This document shows positions 48,170 through 60,229 of a stretch of DNA of 64,000 nucleotides, piece by piece. The notes beneath the pieces were generated by a model that did no database searches, was not told the origin of the DNA, and worked only from the letters and a program-made list of their open reading frames with translations. Positions within the stretch are counted from its first letter, which is position 1. Each line of letters begins with the position of its first letter. The stretch spans positions 186,001-250,000 of the forward strand of contig NZ_JAPUVR010000085.1 of assembly GCF_029255125.1 (NCBI RefSeq), read 5' to 3'. The stretch comes from Accumulibacter sp. Its GTDB lineage: Bacteria > Pseudomonadota > Gammaproteobacteria > Burkholderiales > Rhodocyclaceae. The translations under genes and the position numbers were made by a program.

Positions 48170-48880
48170 ATGCCGCGAGATACAAGCAAGCAAACCGAGC
48201 CAGCGCTGACCGACGTTCGACAGTCGCTGGTCGCCCTGATCAAGCAGGCCGACCGAGCGGGCGCAAACGCGCTGCTCGATGCCTGGGCCGCTCGCCACGG
48301 CTACGAAGAAGTGTTCAAAGTGCTGCTCGAACCGGCACTGATCGGCATCGGCGAGTCGATCACCGGCGAAAAGCATACGCTGGCGCAGGCCTACGTTGCG
48401 GCCAAGGTCGCCGAGGATATGCTCACCCGAGCGGTGAATCAGCCGGGAGCGAACGCCTATGCCGAGCCGGAGAAAGGCCCGGTCGTCCTCGGTAACGCTG
48501 AGGGCGACTTTCACGCGCTCGGCCGCCGGATGGTGGCAACGATGCTGCGCTCCAAGGGGTGGCTCGTGCACGATCTCGGCAACGATGTGCCGCCGGAGGA
48601 ATTCGTCGACCAGGCGCTGGCGACCGGCGCGCGCGTCATTGGCGTCTCGGCGATGACGATGACCACAGCCCAGGGCATCCGCGCCTTGCGCCAGGAACTC
48701 GACACGCGAGGTCTGACCGGCCGGATGCAACTGGCGGTCGGTGGCGCCGTTTTCCTGGTCATGCCGGGCCTGGTTGAAGAGGTCGGCGGTGATGGTACGG
48801 CAAGCAACATGTTTGCCGCTCCGGGCCTGTTCGAGCGGCTTTGGCAAGCCTCGCTGCAGGCGGAGACCATCCATGCATAG
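48170..48880 (+). CDS. Corrinoid (B12)-binding protein, MtaC/MetH-cap type
   Basis: A 236-residue two-domain protein like the corrinoid proteins of methyltransferase systems (MtaC, MtbC, MttC). The helical cap (about residues 10-90) includes EPALIGIGESITGEKHTLAQ. The Rossmann B12 domain has the cobalt-ligand motif EGDFHALGRRMVATMLRSKG, with D113-x-H115-x-x-G as the base-off/His-on signature, then VSAMTMTTAQGIRALRQEL and VGGAVF. It would carry a methyl group between two methyltransferases, or bind B12 as a signal. It overlaps the next gene by eight bases and opens the seven-gene run. Confidence 0.9.
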   Translation: MPRDTSKQTEPALTDVRQSLVALIKQADRAGANALLDAWAARHGYEEVFKVLLEPALIGIGESITGEKHTLAQAYVAAKVAEDMLTRAVNQPGANAYAEPEKGPVVLGNAEGDFHALGRRMVATMLRSKGWLVHDLGNDVPPEEFVDQALATGARVIGVSAMTMTTAQGIRALRQELDTRGLTGRMQLAVGGAVFLVMPGLVEEVGGDGTASNMFAAPGLFERLWQASLQAETIHA

Positions 48881-57553: not shown

Positions 57554-60229
57554 ATGGATACGCTGAAACTGATCTTGCGCCAAGGCATCGGTCACGCGCG
57601 CGCCAGAGCCGACGCCGGAAGAACGGCGGCCGCCCCGCTGGCTTGCCTCGCGCTGCTCGCCGCCGTCGCCGGCGCACTCTTCGCAAGCAGTCTGTTCAGT
57701 TACCTGCTCTTTCATGCGCTGGTCGAACTCGCCACCATCTCCATCGCGTGCACGCTCTTCATCCTGACCTGGAACTCGCGCCAGTATCTTGCCAATGGCT
57801 ACCTGCGGCTGCTTGGCATCGGCTACGGCGCAATCGCCGTGATCGACCTGATGCATACGCTGACTTTCAAGGGCATGAGCATCATCCCCGGCGCTGGCGC
57901 CAACCTGCCGACGCAATTGTGGATCGCCGCGCGCTACCTGCAGGCGATTACCCTGGTCGCCGCACCGCTGTGCATCGAACGCCCGATCAACGACCGCTTG
58001 GTCGTCGTTGGCTACGCGGTGGCCGTCAGCGCACTGGTCGCGGCGATCCTCGGCGGGCAATTCCCGGACTGCTACATCGAGGGGAAAGGGCTGACCGATT
58101 TCAAGATCGGCAGCGAATATCTGATCACCGCGCTGCTGCTCGTCGCGATGTACTTGCTCCAGCGCGCACGCAGGCATTTCAACGACAGCGTCTTCTGGCT
58201 GATCTCCTGCTCGGTCGCCTGCACCATCGTTTCGGAAATCTGCTTCACCGCGTACGTCAGTGTCTACGGGCCGGCCAACATGATCGGTCACTACGCCAAG
58301 CTGGCCGCCTTTTACCTGATCTACCGCGCAGTCCTGGTGACCGGTTTCATACATCCCTTTCAGCTCATCTTTCGCGACCTCAAGCAGAGCGAAGACGCAC
58401 TGCGCGAGTCAAACAAGACGCTGGAAGAAACGGCGCACGCGCGCATCGATGAATTGCTCGCGCGCGAAGCGCGTTATCGCTCGGTGATCGGCAACGCCCC
58501 GGTGGTCATCCATCAGGTCGACCGCAACGGGACCTTCACGATGAGTGAGGGCAAAGGCCTGGCGGCGCTGAATCTGGTGCCGGGTGAGGTGGTCGGCCAG
58601 TCGATCTTCGAGCGCTATCGCGCCTACCCGGACTTTTGTGCGAGTGTACGCCAAGCGATGCTGGGCAAGCGACGGTCGGCCAACGCGCTGATCGATGGAA
58701 TCCATTTCGAGATCTATTTCAGCCTGGTGCCGGGCACGGACGACGCCCCAGAGCTGCTTGCCGTCGCCATCGACGTCAGCGAGCGCAAGCGAATGGAATT
58801 GGCTTTGCACGAGAAAGAAGCGGCGGAAACCGCCAACCGTGCGAAGAGCGTATTCCTGTCCAGCGTCAGCCACGAGCTGCGCACGCCGCTCAACGCCATC
58901 CTTGGCTTTGCGGATCTGCTACGGCACGATGCCGGTATCAGCAGCGCTCAGCGCGAGCAGCTCGAGGTCATCCACCACAGCGGCGCACACCTCTTGCGAC
59001 TGATCAACGACATCCTCGATATTTCGCGCATCGAAGCGGGCCGCGTACAGTTGCCGAGAGCGCCCTTCGATCTGACTGCGCTGGTCGACAGCCTGCTCGC
59101 GGCGAACAGCCCGGCCGCCTGCGCGAAGGGGCTGCAGCTCAACCTCGAGCGCTCACCCGAGGTACCGCGCTACGTCTGGGGCGCCGAAACCCGGCTGCGC
59201 CAGGCACTCGGCAAGCTACTGGACAACGCGATCAAGTACACCAGTCAGGGCAGCGTCACGCTGCGCCTGAGCGCCAGCCCAAACCCTGTCGGCAGCCAAT
59301 TGCGGATCGCGGTCGAGGACACCGGCGCGGGTATCGCGGCCGACGATCAGACGCTGGTGTTCGACGCTTTCGTGCAGGCCGGCGCCAATTCCAGTCAGCA
59401 AGGAACCGGGCTGGGGCTGGCGATCACCCGCAAACTGGTTGAGCTGATGGGCGGCCAGATCGGCGTCGTCAGTCAGCCTGGGCAAGGCAGTTGTTTCGTA
59501 ATCGACCTGCCGGTCGAGCTCGCCGACCCGTCGGACGTGAACGGCGCGCCAGACAACACGACGGAAGTGCTTGGTCTGGCGCCGGCGCAACCCGACTGGC
59601 GAATCCTGGTTTACGCCGAACAGCCGGAGACCGACCTGTCGCTCGTCCGCCTGCTGCAGGAAGCGGGATTCGAGGTCCACGCAACGGCCGACAGCAGTGA
59701 GGTTATTCAACACTTCCAGAAATGGCAACCGCACCTGATCTGGCTCGACCGTGTGCAGCCGCTGCCCGAGGGGCTGGCCGCCATCCGGGAAATCCGCGCC
59801 TTGGCTGGCGGAGCGCAGGTCAAGATCGTCGCCCTGGCGAACTCGGCGCTCGCCGGACAGCGCACGCAGATGCTCGCCGCCGGAATCGACGAGGTGCTGC
59901 ACCGGCCGTTCCGGCCCGACGAAATCTTTGCCTGCCTGGAGCGTCTGCTCGACGCCCGCTTCCTGCGCTGGCAAGCGGAACCCGTTGCCGCAACGAGCGC
60001 GCGCCCCGACCGCGCGGCGTTGGCGGCGCTGCCCGAAGCCCTGCGGCACGATTTCGCCGACGCGTTGCTGCGCCTCGACAGCGAGCGCATCGGCGCCCTG
60101 ATCAGGCAGATCGGCGAGCACGACGCGGCGCTTGGCCGGATCCTGCGCAGCCACGCCGACAATTTCGACTTCGCCTGGATCGAGACTGCCCTGCACGATG
60201 CGGGCGCCACCCCGCCGCTGGCCGACTAG
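57554..60229 (+). CDS. Hybrid histidine kinase 4 (MASE3-PAS-HisKA-HATPase-degenerate REC)
   Basis: An 891-residue membrane kinase. The MASE3 domain (about residues 30-275) has seven to eight helices and the motifs GYGAIAVIDLMHTLTFKGM and PTQLWIAARYLQAITL. A PAS domain (about 305-420) precedes HisKA with H440 in [10 protein letters not shown] and an ATPase with DTGAGIA and [12 protein letters not shown]. The receiver keeps D732 (WLDRVQP) but has A688-E689 for the acidic pair, A762 for the conserved Thr and R784 for the conserved Lys, so it looks like a pseudo-receiver. The shared C-terminal domain follows. It starts three bases after the stop of kinase 3. Confidence 0.93.
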   Translation: MDTLKLILRQGIGHARARADAGRTAAAPLACLALLAAVAGALFASSLFSYLLFHALVELATISIACTLFILTWNSRQYLANGYLRLLGIGYGAIAVIDLMHTLTFKGMSIIPGAGANLPTQLWIAARYLQAITLVAAPLCIERPINDRLVVVGYAVAVSALVAAILGGQFPDCYIEGKGLTDFKIGSEYLITALLLVAMYLLQRARRHFNDSVFWLISCSVACTIVSEICFTAYVSVYGPANMIGHYAKLAAFYLIYRAVLVTGFIHPFQLIFRDLKQSEDALRESNKTLEETAHARIDELLAREARYRSVIGNAPVVIHQVDRNGTFTMSEGKGLAALNLVPGEVVGQSIFERYRAYPDFCASVRQAMLGKRRSANALIDGIHFEIYFSLVPGTDDAPELLAVAIDVSERKRMELALHEKEAAETANRAKSVFLSSVSHELRTPLNAILGFADLLRHDAGISSAQREQLEVIHHSGAHLLRLINDILDISRIEAGRVQLPRAPFDLTALVDSLLAANSPAACAKGLQLNLERSPEVPRYVWGAETRLRQALGKLLDNAIKYTSQGSVTLRLSASPNPVGSQLRIAVEDTGAGIAADDQTLVFDAFVQAGANSSQQGTGLGLAITRKLVELMGGQIGVVSQPGQGSCFVIDLPVELADPSDVNGAPDNTTEVLGLAPAQPDWRILVYAEQPETDLSLVRLLQEAGFEVHATADSSEVIQHFQKWQPHLIWLDRVQPLPEGLAAIREIRALAGGAQVKIVALANSALAGQRTQMLAAGIDEVLHRPFRPDEIFACLERLLDARFLRWQAEPVAATSARPDRAALAALPEALRHDFADALLRLDSERIGALIRQIGEHDAALGRILRSHADNFDFAWIETALHDAGATPPLAD

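Follow-up and report, generated by a model that had tools for sequence, protein, structure and literature searches.

Why would genes for a corrinoid protein, a methyltransferase-like protein and a DUF1638 protein run without a break into genes for four hybrid histidine kinases? B12 proteins that transfer methyl groups have an established place in metabolism, and the sensors known to us that are built on a B12 protein respond to light. The genes lie in a window of 64,000 nucleotides, the whole stretch of DNA analysed here, from a wastewater bacterium of the genus Candidatus Accumulibacter. Members of this genus are important in phosphorus removal from sewage and, to our knowledge, the signals sensed by their kinases are largely unknown.

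The seven genes are collinear on the plus strand at positions 48170-60229. A sequence-only reading had described them as a closely packed run with overlaps or gaps of less than 60 bases; all seven open reading frames are indeed present, with their domains confirmed by Pfam, and the largest junction gap is 57 bases. The B12 and UroD genes overlap by 8 bases, the UroD start at 48873 lying within the end of the B12 gene, while the UroD and DUF1638 genes share a single base (TGATG at 49895), as do the DUF1638 gene and that of the first kinase, HK1 (TAGTG at 50506). Because of this last overlap, the GTG at 50506, not the start of the open reading frame at 50416, is most likely the start of HK1. HK1 and HK2 either overlap by 20 bases or are 10 bases apart, depending on the start chosen, and gaps of 57 and 3 bases separate HK2 from HK3 and HK3 from HK4. 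The run is bordered by a divergent PAP2 gene on the left (46947-47702) and a convergent gene for an FtsX-like permease on the right (60273-61544). A consensus scan of 47600-60600 returned one sigma70-like site (47752-47781) and nine terminator-like sites, neither of which stands above shuffled sequence (means of 1.1 and 8.2).

The first gene (48170-48880, plus strand) encodes a corrinoid (B12)-binding protein of 236 residues (P0001; Pfam B12-binding, 3.9e-21), which is predicted to bind cobalamin. Its cobalamin-histidine motif DxHxxG (D113/H115/G118) forms part of a DxHxxG...S...GG signature of the base-off/His-on type that is invariant in all 21 rows of the alignment, which cover 20 module loci and also L017, and its N-terminal half gives a weak cap-like match, with B12-binding_2 under the Pfam cut-off. 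The best PDB chains are 1y80, a predicted cobalamin binding protein, and 3ezx, a monomethylamine corrinoid protein. Among the weaker matches are chains of CarH and the entries 8j2w-8j2y, which we take to be photocobilins; P0001 could thus be a photosensor, with the kinases reporting light. B12 photoreceptors are a known class (PMC10979010, in excerpt), but the higher-scoring named matches of P0001 are methyltransferase corrinoid proteins, a methyltransferase-fold partner stands alongside in 26 loci, and a Pfam scan of P0001 found B12 domains only, with neither the DNA-binding domain of a CarH-type fusion nor any other extra domain. We therefore regard light sensing as very improbable.

The partner in question is encoded by the second gene (48873-49895, plus strand), whose product of 340 residues (P0002) is a UroD/MtaA-fold methyltransferase-like protein of the URO-D superfamily (PF01208; 3.6e-37, 128.6 bits vs. 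a gathering score of 23.9). Its best PDB match in a profile search is MtaA (4ay7, 2.5e-24). The match to the MtaA/CmuA family (TIGR01463; 7.4e-12, 45.2 bits) falls far under the curated cut-off of 235 bits, and so do those of L018, L076 and L127 (114.9, 64.4 and 89.7 bits), which together with P0002 make up the four of 26 module UroD proteins compared with this family. The places of the zinc ligands were taken from an alignment to MtaA. At these places, the His-Cys-Cys set is kept in none of the 26 module members, P0002 included: the Accumulibacter type reads LHHL; a second type, the fusion clade, has (T/I/V)H, followed by NHGE where the third ligand would lie; and a third, the RACo type, has YYCG or YYAG and no Cys at the third place. 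The rule for S-methyltransferases is His-x-Cys ... Cys (PMC10418091, in excerpt). Pocket residues also differ among the three types across the 26 module rows and L017, which makes a ligand common to all three unlikely.

The third gene (49895-50506, plus strand) encodes a DUF1638 protein of 203 residues (P0003; PF07796, 2.2e-25, 89.9 bits vs. a gathering score of 27). It has three conserved cysteines, of which C73 and C94 occur in all 78 DUF1638 rows and C14 in 76, the remaining two rows having gaps there. An AlphaFold2 model made from two sequences is alpha/beta with a mean pLDDT of 64.7; it has no PDB structural match at 1e-3 or better, the best being arylmalonate decarboxylase at 3e-3, and a profile search likewise gave no credible match.

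All four kinases, on the plus strand, have a HisKA-HATPase core and a receiver assigned by Pfam, and they differ in their sensor heads. HK1 (P0004, 50506-52956) has a GAF-fold domain and a PAS domain ahead of the core and a C-terminal extension after the receiver; HK2 (P0005, 52937-55462) has a MASE1 membrane sensor; HK3 (P0006, 55520-57550) has a PocR sensor domain (1.1e-32); and HK4 (P0007, 57554-60229) has a MASE3 membrane sensor (3.7e-80). HisKA, HATPase_c, receiver and phospho-acceptor residues are complete in HK1-HK3, but the receiver of HK4 is degenerate (Response_reg only 3.6e-10): it keeps the Asp but has substitutions at the Thr, at the Lys and at one residue of the acidic pair. The kinase-receiver cores of HK2 and HK3 are 61% and 64% identical to that of HK1, and HK2-HK4 look like copies of one kinase core fitted with other heads. 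The sequence-only reading had proposed to look for the trio beside MASE1, PocR or MASE3 kinases. These are not the conserved part: two Accumulibacter genomes (G008 and G026) carry the trio with one HK1-type kinase only; HK2-HK4 are local extras, and HK1 is the kinase conserved with the trio in Accumulibacter. No PocR domain was found in 20 scanned proteins from relatives.

The N-terminal head of HK1 has no Pfam name; its assignment to the GAF fold comes from a Foldseek comparison of a model of the head from this window, one of the three types. This head occurs once each in four of 150 relatives, exactly those with an Accumulibacter-type trio. Similarity between heads is strong within the RACo and Accumulibacter types and weaker but significant within the fusion clade; a single family spanning the three types was not recovered, hhalign being not significant in all three pairings.

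Outside this window, the trio with a histidine kinase recurs over six family labels plus Azoarcus. The expected conservation of synteny was borne out in a narrower form than had been proposed: judged from gene order and domain content, the conserved unit is the B12 protein, UroD, DUF1638 and one kinase. A UroD gene lies directly upstream of DUF1638 in 26 of 78 loci, and in 23 of these 26 a kinase is fused to DUF1638 or follows downstream on the same strand within 4.5 kb; the other three (L023, L146 and L147) reach a contig end within 232 bases. Among the 52 loci without UroD, the corresponding number is four (Fisher p 1e-12 over 78 loci that are not independent). Two of these four (L021 and L069) have their upstream side cut by contig ends, L019 carries a DUF1638 that belongs to the fusion clade but is not itself fused and has no visible B12 or UroD gene, and in L101 the kinase lies 3.4 kb from DUF1638. 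In nine loci (L018, L020, L022, L067, L068, L069, L070, L127 and L145), a histidine kinase carries DUF1638 as an N-terminal fusion, both domains being confirmed by Pfam in the three scanned (L018, L067 and L068).

Hybrid kinases are numerous in such genomes, and a B12 gene group could merely happen to precede unrelated ones, as the missing HK2-HK4 of G008 and G026 might suggest. The counts of synteny and of fusions refute this explanation, since the association recurs in 23 loci over such a range of families and also within single chains, and we give it almost no credence. A contig scan with P0002 as sole query, which reaches close relatives only, returned L024 as a true relative. It also returned four loci of Burkholderiaceae with 63-84 residues matched; these were rejected, as none of the profiles for B12, UroD, DUF1638, kinase, receiver and RACo gave a hit there. 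On plasmids, the fusion was found only in Azoarcus, and a UroD query also matched Acetoanaerobium noterae at 19.5% identity.

In trees of DUF1638 (78 rows, 48 of them methionine-type) and of the B12 protein (72 rows, 45 methionine-type), module members are separated with high support from the methionine-type rows, and both trees place the Accumulibacter set together with the fusion set; L021 falls with the RACo type. This separation bears on the idea that the trio is left over from, or assists in, methionine synthesis or B12 reactivation. Growth of Phaeobacter inhibens DUF1638 mutants is rescued by methionine, and that study was unable to suggest a function for the protein (PMC5764234); a Ruegeria DUF1638 protein is more abundant on N-osmolytes (PMC12478193, in excerpt). 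The MetH of this genome, however, carries its own reactivation domain in one long frame. Of 20 genomes with DUF1638 that were tested, the present one among them, 19 have a MetH reactivation domain. MTTB (MtgB, the betaine branch) was found in none of the 20. Furthermore, a tblastn search with this MetH found homocysteine or pterin domains near none of 29 module-type loci (the 26 with UroD, and L019, L021 and L069) vs. 39 of 48 others. A methionine role is rejected on the MetH reactivation domain and the lack of MetH-like domains nearby, and retains only a slight probability.

The main rival is a second metabolic explanation, in which the trio makes up a small pathway of corrinoid methyl transfer for demethylation or dehalomethylation and the kinases only control its expression. 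The mec cassettes provide a precedent in that they combine several methyltransferases and a corrinoid protein with the PocR kinase MecA and a receiver (PMC9768040, in excerpt). The sequence-only reading had stated that a RamA-type activase is absent nearby. This is correct for the present genome, where no PF14574 was found, but in 11 of the 23 loci with trio and kinase a RamA/RACo gene lies ahead of the trio, a sign that real turnover may take place there. In Azoarcus KH32C, moreover, the module has fae/fhc genes on one side and a PQQ methanol dehydrogenase on the other. On the other hand, the 29 module-type loci have no MetH-like pterin methyltransferase II nearby as in mec, and no homocysteine- or pterin-methyltransferase subunit as in a split methionine synthase or MtgBCD system, in a search that more distant pterin or acceptor enzymes could escape. 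DUF1638 is fused to kinases in nine loci, and no activase was found in this genome to sustain turnover. A pathway of this kind is possible, but we consider it rather unlikely. Sensing of methylotrophy as a general role was also rejected: 17 of 150 relatives have Fae, yet only one of the nine that carry DUF1638 is among them, and the Azoarcus context does not generalise.

Since related bacteria keep or fuse the trio and the kinases, the trio is probably a sensor component rather than a metabolic pathway. The proposal of a corrinoid-linked sensing system is supported by recurrence and fusion alike, and we favor a reading in which the trio provides the sensory input of a two-component kinase. This is argued by the kinase counts with and without UroD, the nine fusions, the separate DUF1638 and B12 clades, the missing MetH-like parts together with the MTTB and reactivation-domain counts, and the restriction of the HK1 head to relatives with an Accumulibacter-type trio. 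It is also argued by the flanks: most of 20 scanned flanking and window proteins have no relation to the module, examples being enolase, SelO and homoserine dehydrogenase, and periplasmic binding proteins and c-di-GMP enzymes occur at several loci. The sequence-only reading had noted no output regulator nearby, which is true here, but c-di-GMP-type outputs (HD, GGDEF and EAL) lie beside several relatives.

Several observations weaken the sensory reading. Kinases beside an enzyme could regulate it rather than listen to it, as has been proposed for MecA. The protein encoded immediately after DUF1638 in L071 and L072 contains GAF and PAS domains and no kinase domain, L017 has B12, UroD, RACo and DUF1638 without a kinase, and L019 has DUF1638 without visible B12 or UroD. 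No reductive activase was found in four Accumulibacter genomes or in five fusion-clade DUF1638 genomes (G076, G044, G185, G178 and G221), which leaves cobalt recycling there without an explanation.

How might such a module work? It seems probable that methyl transfer to the corrinoid protein, or the state of its cobalt, is read via DUF1638 by the kinase; in the scheme that follows, we infer the ligand, the methyl transfer and the direction of information flow. The UroD-like protein would bind a small methyl donor or other ligand and pass a methyl group to the corrinoid-bound B12, or otherwise alter its cobalt state. DUF1638, which has three conserved cysteines and whose genetics tie it to B12-dependent methionine synthesis, would read this state and act on the HK1 head, as a partner protein here and as a domain of the same chain in relatives. 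HK1 would then autophosphorylate and relay phosphate via its own receiver to outputs encoded elsewhere, with HK2-HK4 probably adding inputs to the same relay.

More tentatively, this could be a new kind of bacterial chemosensor, in which an enzyme-like pair of UroD and corrinoid protein detects the ligand for a phosphorelay. The signal would be whether cobalt in B12 is methylated or oxidised, and DUF1638 would couple it to the kinase, in some cases from within the kinase chain. If so, the three types, with their unlike pockets, would be detectors for different methyl donors. A conserved module of corrinoid protein, methyltransferase fold and kinase would represent a third use of B12 proteins, the reading of small methyl compounds or cobalt redox state. 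The fusions also provide a direct handle on DUF1638, whose function could be assayed via kinase output. No description of such a module was found among the papers listed in the literature searches, a set with most subscription papers outside it.

Known systems resemble the module in part. P0002 shares its fold and remote sequence similarity with MtaA/CmuA and other UroD-superfamily corrinoid methyltransferases, but differs from MtaA/CmuA in its score (45 vs. 235 bits) and in the zinc set missing from all module members. In Methanosarcina, the sensor kinases MsmS and RdmS are linked to corrinoid methyltransferase genes. RdmS is a methyltransferase-associated sensor kinase according to a title cited in PMC11784639, and excerpts of that paper describe RdmS and MsmS as lacking an H-box, which the kinases of the seven-gene run keep; the term corrinoid is absent from that paper. 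CarH and photocobilins, which sense light with adenosylcobalamin and include a photocobilin fused to a diguanylate cyclase (PMC10979010, in excerpt), also use a B12-binding domain for sensing; the module differs in its methyltransferase-fold partner and in having a histidine kinase as neighbor or fusion. Split methionine synthase and MtgBCD glycine-betaine systems likewise place a B12 gene near DUF1638 (PMC5764234 and PMC12478193, in excerpt), with a RamA-like activase in several loci. Unlike the module, the 48 methionine-type loci have no UroD directly upstream of DUF1638, have a kinase within 4.5 kb only in L101, mostly have MetH-like domains nearby and fall into separate clades. A further case is that of the mec cassettes of anaerobic dichloromethane degraders, whose methyltransferases include one of the CmuA/MtaA family, whose likely reactivation proteins are present in all but that of strain DCMF and for which regulation by substrate has been proposed (PMC9768040, in excerpt). 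The window, too, combines a corrinoid protein, an MtaA-like protein and a PocR-domain kinase, HK3, in one cluster. The mec cassettes, however, are catabolic, with several methyltransferases I and a methyltransferase II, whereas the module has a single UroD-like protein, and the stretches searched contain no pterin or homocysteine domain of the MetH kind. Its hybrid kinase gene shares one base with the end of the trio here, and in relatives the kinase is fused to DUF1638.

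The seven plus-strand genes that the sequence-only reading described were recovered in collinear order within the interval it gave: a trio encoding a B12-binding protein (48170-48880), a UroD/MtaA-like protein (UroD, 48873-49895), and a DUF1638 protein (49895-50506), followed by the hybrid histidine kinases HK1 (50506-52956), HK2 (52937-55462), HK3 (55520-57550), and HK4 (57554-60229), with one-base overlaps at the UroD/DUF1638 and DUF1638/HK1 junctions. The left neighbor, on the opposite strand, is divergent and the right neighbor convergent, which sets the seven apart as a single directional block; GC content is nearly equal in the trio (0.66), the kinases (0.65), and the window (0.65). 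The genome itself (G000) comprises 3.83 Mb over 150 contigs. At 62250-63630, beside a MacB/FtsX-type ABC transporter, two adjacent genes for zinc handling encode a ZrgA-type uptake protein and a ZIP transporter.

DUF1638 occurs in 9 of 150 relatives and, in a sample of 397 genomes from the phylum, in 66, both counts including the window's genome. We compared the neighborhoods of 60 of the 66 non-own matches in the phylum sample, 11 regions of relatives, one named plasmid, and five further loci, and a single script scored 78 DUF1638 loci, counting a kinase if it was fused to DUF1638 or encoded downstream on its strand no more than 4.5 kb away. A UroD gene lies directly upstream of DUF1638 in 26 of the 78. 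Of these, 23 have a kinase so defined, and the remaining three run into a contig end within 232 bases. By comparison, a kinase is in range at only 4 of the 52 loci without UroD (Fisher p 1e-12, although loci of one genus are not independent), so that the synteny predicted between trio and histidine kinase does recur. Two of these four (L021 and L069) are truncated by a contig end on the upstream side; L019 (1703-2347) carries a DUF1638 that belongs to the fusion clade (type C, below) but is not fused, and the 1.7 kb between it and the start of the contig holds neither UroD nor B12 gene; at L101 the kinase is 3.4 kb away. The trio-plus-kinase loci span six family labels (f1, f85, f89, f93, f95, and f106) and Azoarcus sp. 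KH32C, and the sole contrary arrangement, L017, combines B12, UroD, DUF1638, and the RamA-type reductive activase RACo without a kinase. Distribution is patchy, with 11/48 genomes in the class of G193 and 4/78 in that of G158.

The 23 loci fall into three types. Type A (11 loci) reads RACo-B12-UroD-DUF1638 and then kinases; in the loci compared, the first proteins after DUF1638 have head domains related to one another. Type B (four loci, all Accumulibacter, the window included) reads B12-UroD-DUF1638-HK1-type kinase, and type C (eight loci) joins DUF1638, a linking segment, and the kinase in one chain behind B12 and UroD, neither type having RACo nearby; the truncated L069 is a ninth such fusion. 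The DUF1638 and B12-protein trees (midpoint root) concordantly set module members apart from the methionine-type loci (48 of the 78), place L021 in type A, and join type B with type C at weaker support (96/78 and 98/76). RACo was found in 11 of 20 whole genomes tested, but none was detected in any of the four type B genomes or in G076, G044, G185, G178, and G221. An activase, noted earlier as absent near the trio in the window, is not always missing, since RACo heads the type A loci. In one metagenome-assembled genome (L143, 2550-4355), B12 and UroD domains share a single 601-aa open frame, possibly another form of fusion and possibly an assembly artifact. In three f85 genomes, an NMT1/THI5-like binding-protein gene (L071, 6330-7370; L072, 12186-13232; L073, 11475-12491; assigned by Pfam for L071, the others alike by eye) sits within the gene block, between a GAF/PAS protein and a hybrid kinase. 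The protein after DUF1638 has 406 aa at L073 (10271-11491) and 700-737 aa at L071 and L072, where it has additional GAF and PAS domains but lacks a kinase domain.

HK1-HK4 share a kinase-receiver core (54-64% identity in alignment) under different sensor heads, namely a domain unnamed in Pfam plus PAS in HK1, MASE1 in HK2, PocR in HK3, and MASE3 in HK4, a pattern that looks like duplication with a swap of sensor domains. A two-sequence AlphaFold2 model of the HK1 N-terminal domain (mean pLDDT 69) gave 147 PDB matches at E <= 0.001, the best including NifA and phytochrome GAF domains and the ligand-binding domains of LuxR-type regulators. Searched as a 161-aa query against the 150 relatives, this domain was found in four, once each and always at the trio, and these are exactly the four trio-bearing Accumulibacter genomes. 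Since the HK1 head tracks the trio in all four, and since the stretch seen in G008 and G026 has the HK1-type kinase alone beside the trio, the MASE1, PocR, and MASE3 kinases look, from gene content, like local additions; of the linkage originally proposed, the trio with an HK1-type kinase is conserved in Accumulibacter, and those three kinases are not the conserved part. The contig of a further Accumulibacter genome, G002, stops before the region where they could show; there (L015, 5153-7999), the gene immediately preceding that for the B12 protein, in the same orientation, encodes a REC-PAS-HK-REC protein. HK4 retains its phospho-acceptor histidine and the receiver aspartate, but the receiver, a possible pseudo-receiver, lacks three signature residues: one member of the acidic pair, the threonine, and the lysine.

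A tblastn search with MetH of the window's genome detected homocysteine or pterin domains near 39/48 methionine-type loci and near none of the 29 module-type loci (the 26 with UroD plus L019, L021, and L069), the window being searched whole and some contigs being short. MTTB was found in none of 20 genomes tested; the MetH reactivation domain was present in 19, the window's included, and missing only in G082 (85% complete). The other flanking proteins scanned are mostly ordinary, with signaling as the recurrent theme: REC-HD proteins at L016 and L019, REC-GGDEF-EAL at L020, REC-GAF-PAS-GGDEF at L070, and at L022 a kinase that also has receivers and an HD domain. Periplasmic binding proteins occur at L071 (NMT1-like), L068 (phosphonate-type), and, on the opposite strand, L018. 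On plasmid pAZKH of Azoarcus sp. KH32C (NC_020548.1; L127, 12306-17455), a type C module is flanked on one side by the formaldehyde-oxidation genes fae/fhc and on the other by a cluster for PQQ methanol dehydrogenase. This hints at one-carbon sensing in that strain only, because Fae was found in one of the nine DUF1638-bearing relatives and not in the window's genome.

The B12 proteins keep DxHxxG in 21/21 rows, 20 of them module loci. In DUF1638, for which the predicted structure is a weak model, C73 and C94 are present in 78/78 sequences and C14 in 76/78, the two misses being gaps; a conserved set of three cysteines points to a metal or redox function. Methionine-type proteins retain H42, as do those of types A and B except for a single type A sequence with aspartate; it is missing from 12/12 type C rows. 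Among solved structures, the UroD-like proteins best match MtaA, and the His-Cys-Cys zinc set is retained in none of the 26 module proteins; the excerpted text of PMC10418091 describes O-methyltransferases of the superfamily with carboxylates or non-coordinating residues in place of the cysteines. The pocket holds a conserved His and an NHGE motif in type C (10/10), H-H-L-(D/E) in type B (4/4), and Y-Y-(C/A)-G in type A (12/12), differences suggesting that the three types may bind different ligands.

The simplest account is that the module is a sensor, because this explains the DUF1638-kinase fusion, the lack of acceptors nearby, and the fixed kinase linkage. A ligand or methyl donor would act on UroD, UroD on the cobalt of the B12 protein, the cobalt on DUF1638, and DUF1638 through the kinase on the receiver, with flow probably running from ligand toward receiver. 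No description of such a module was found in the open-access literature searched. A small pathway equipped with its own regulator is rather unlikely; the published mec cassette, a dichloromethane-degradation cluster, offers a parallel for such an arrangement (PMC9768040).
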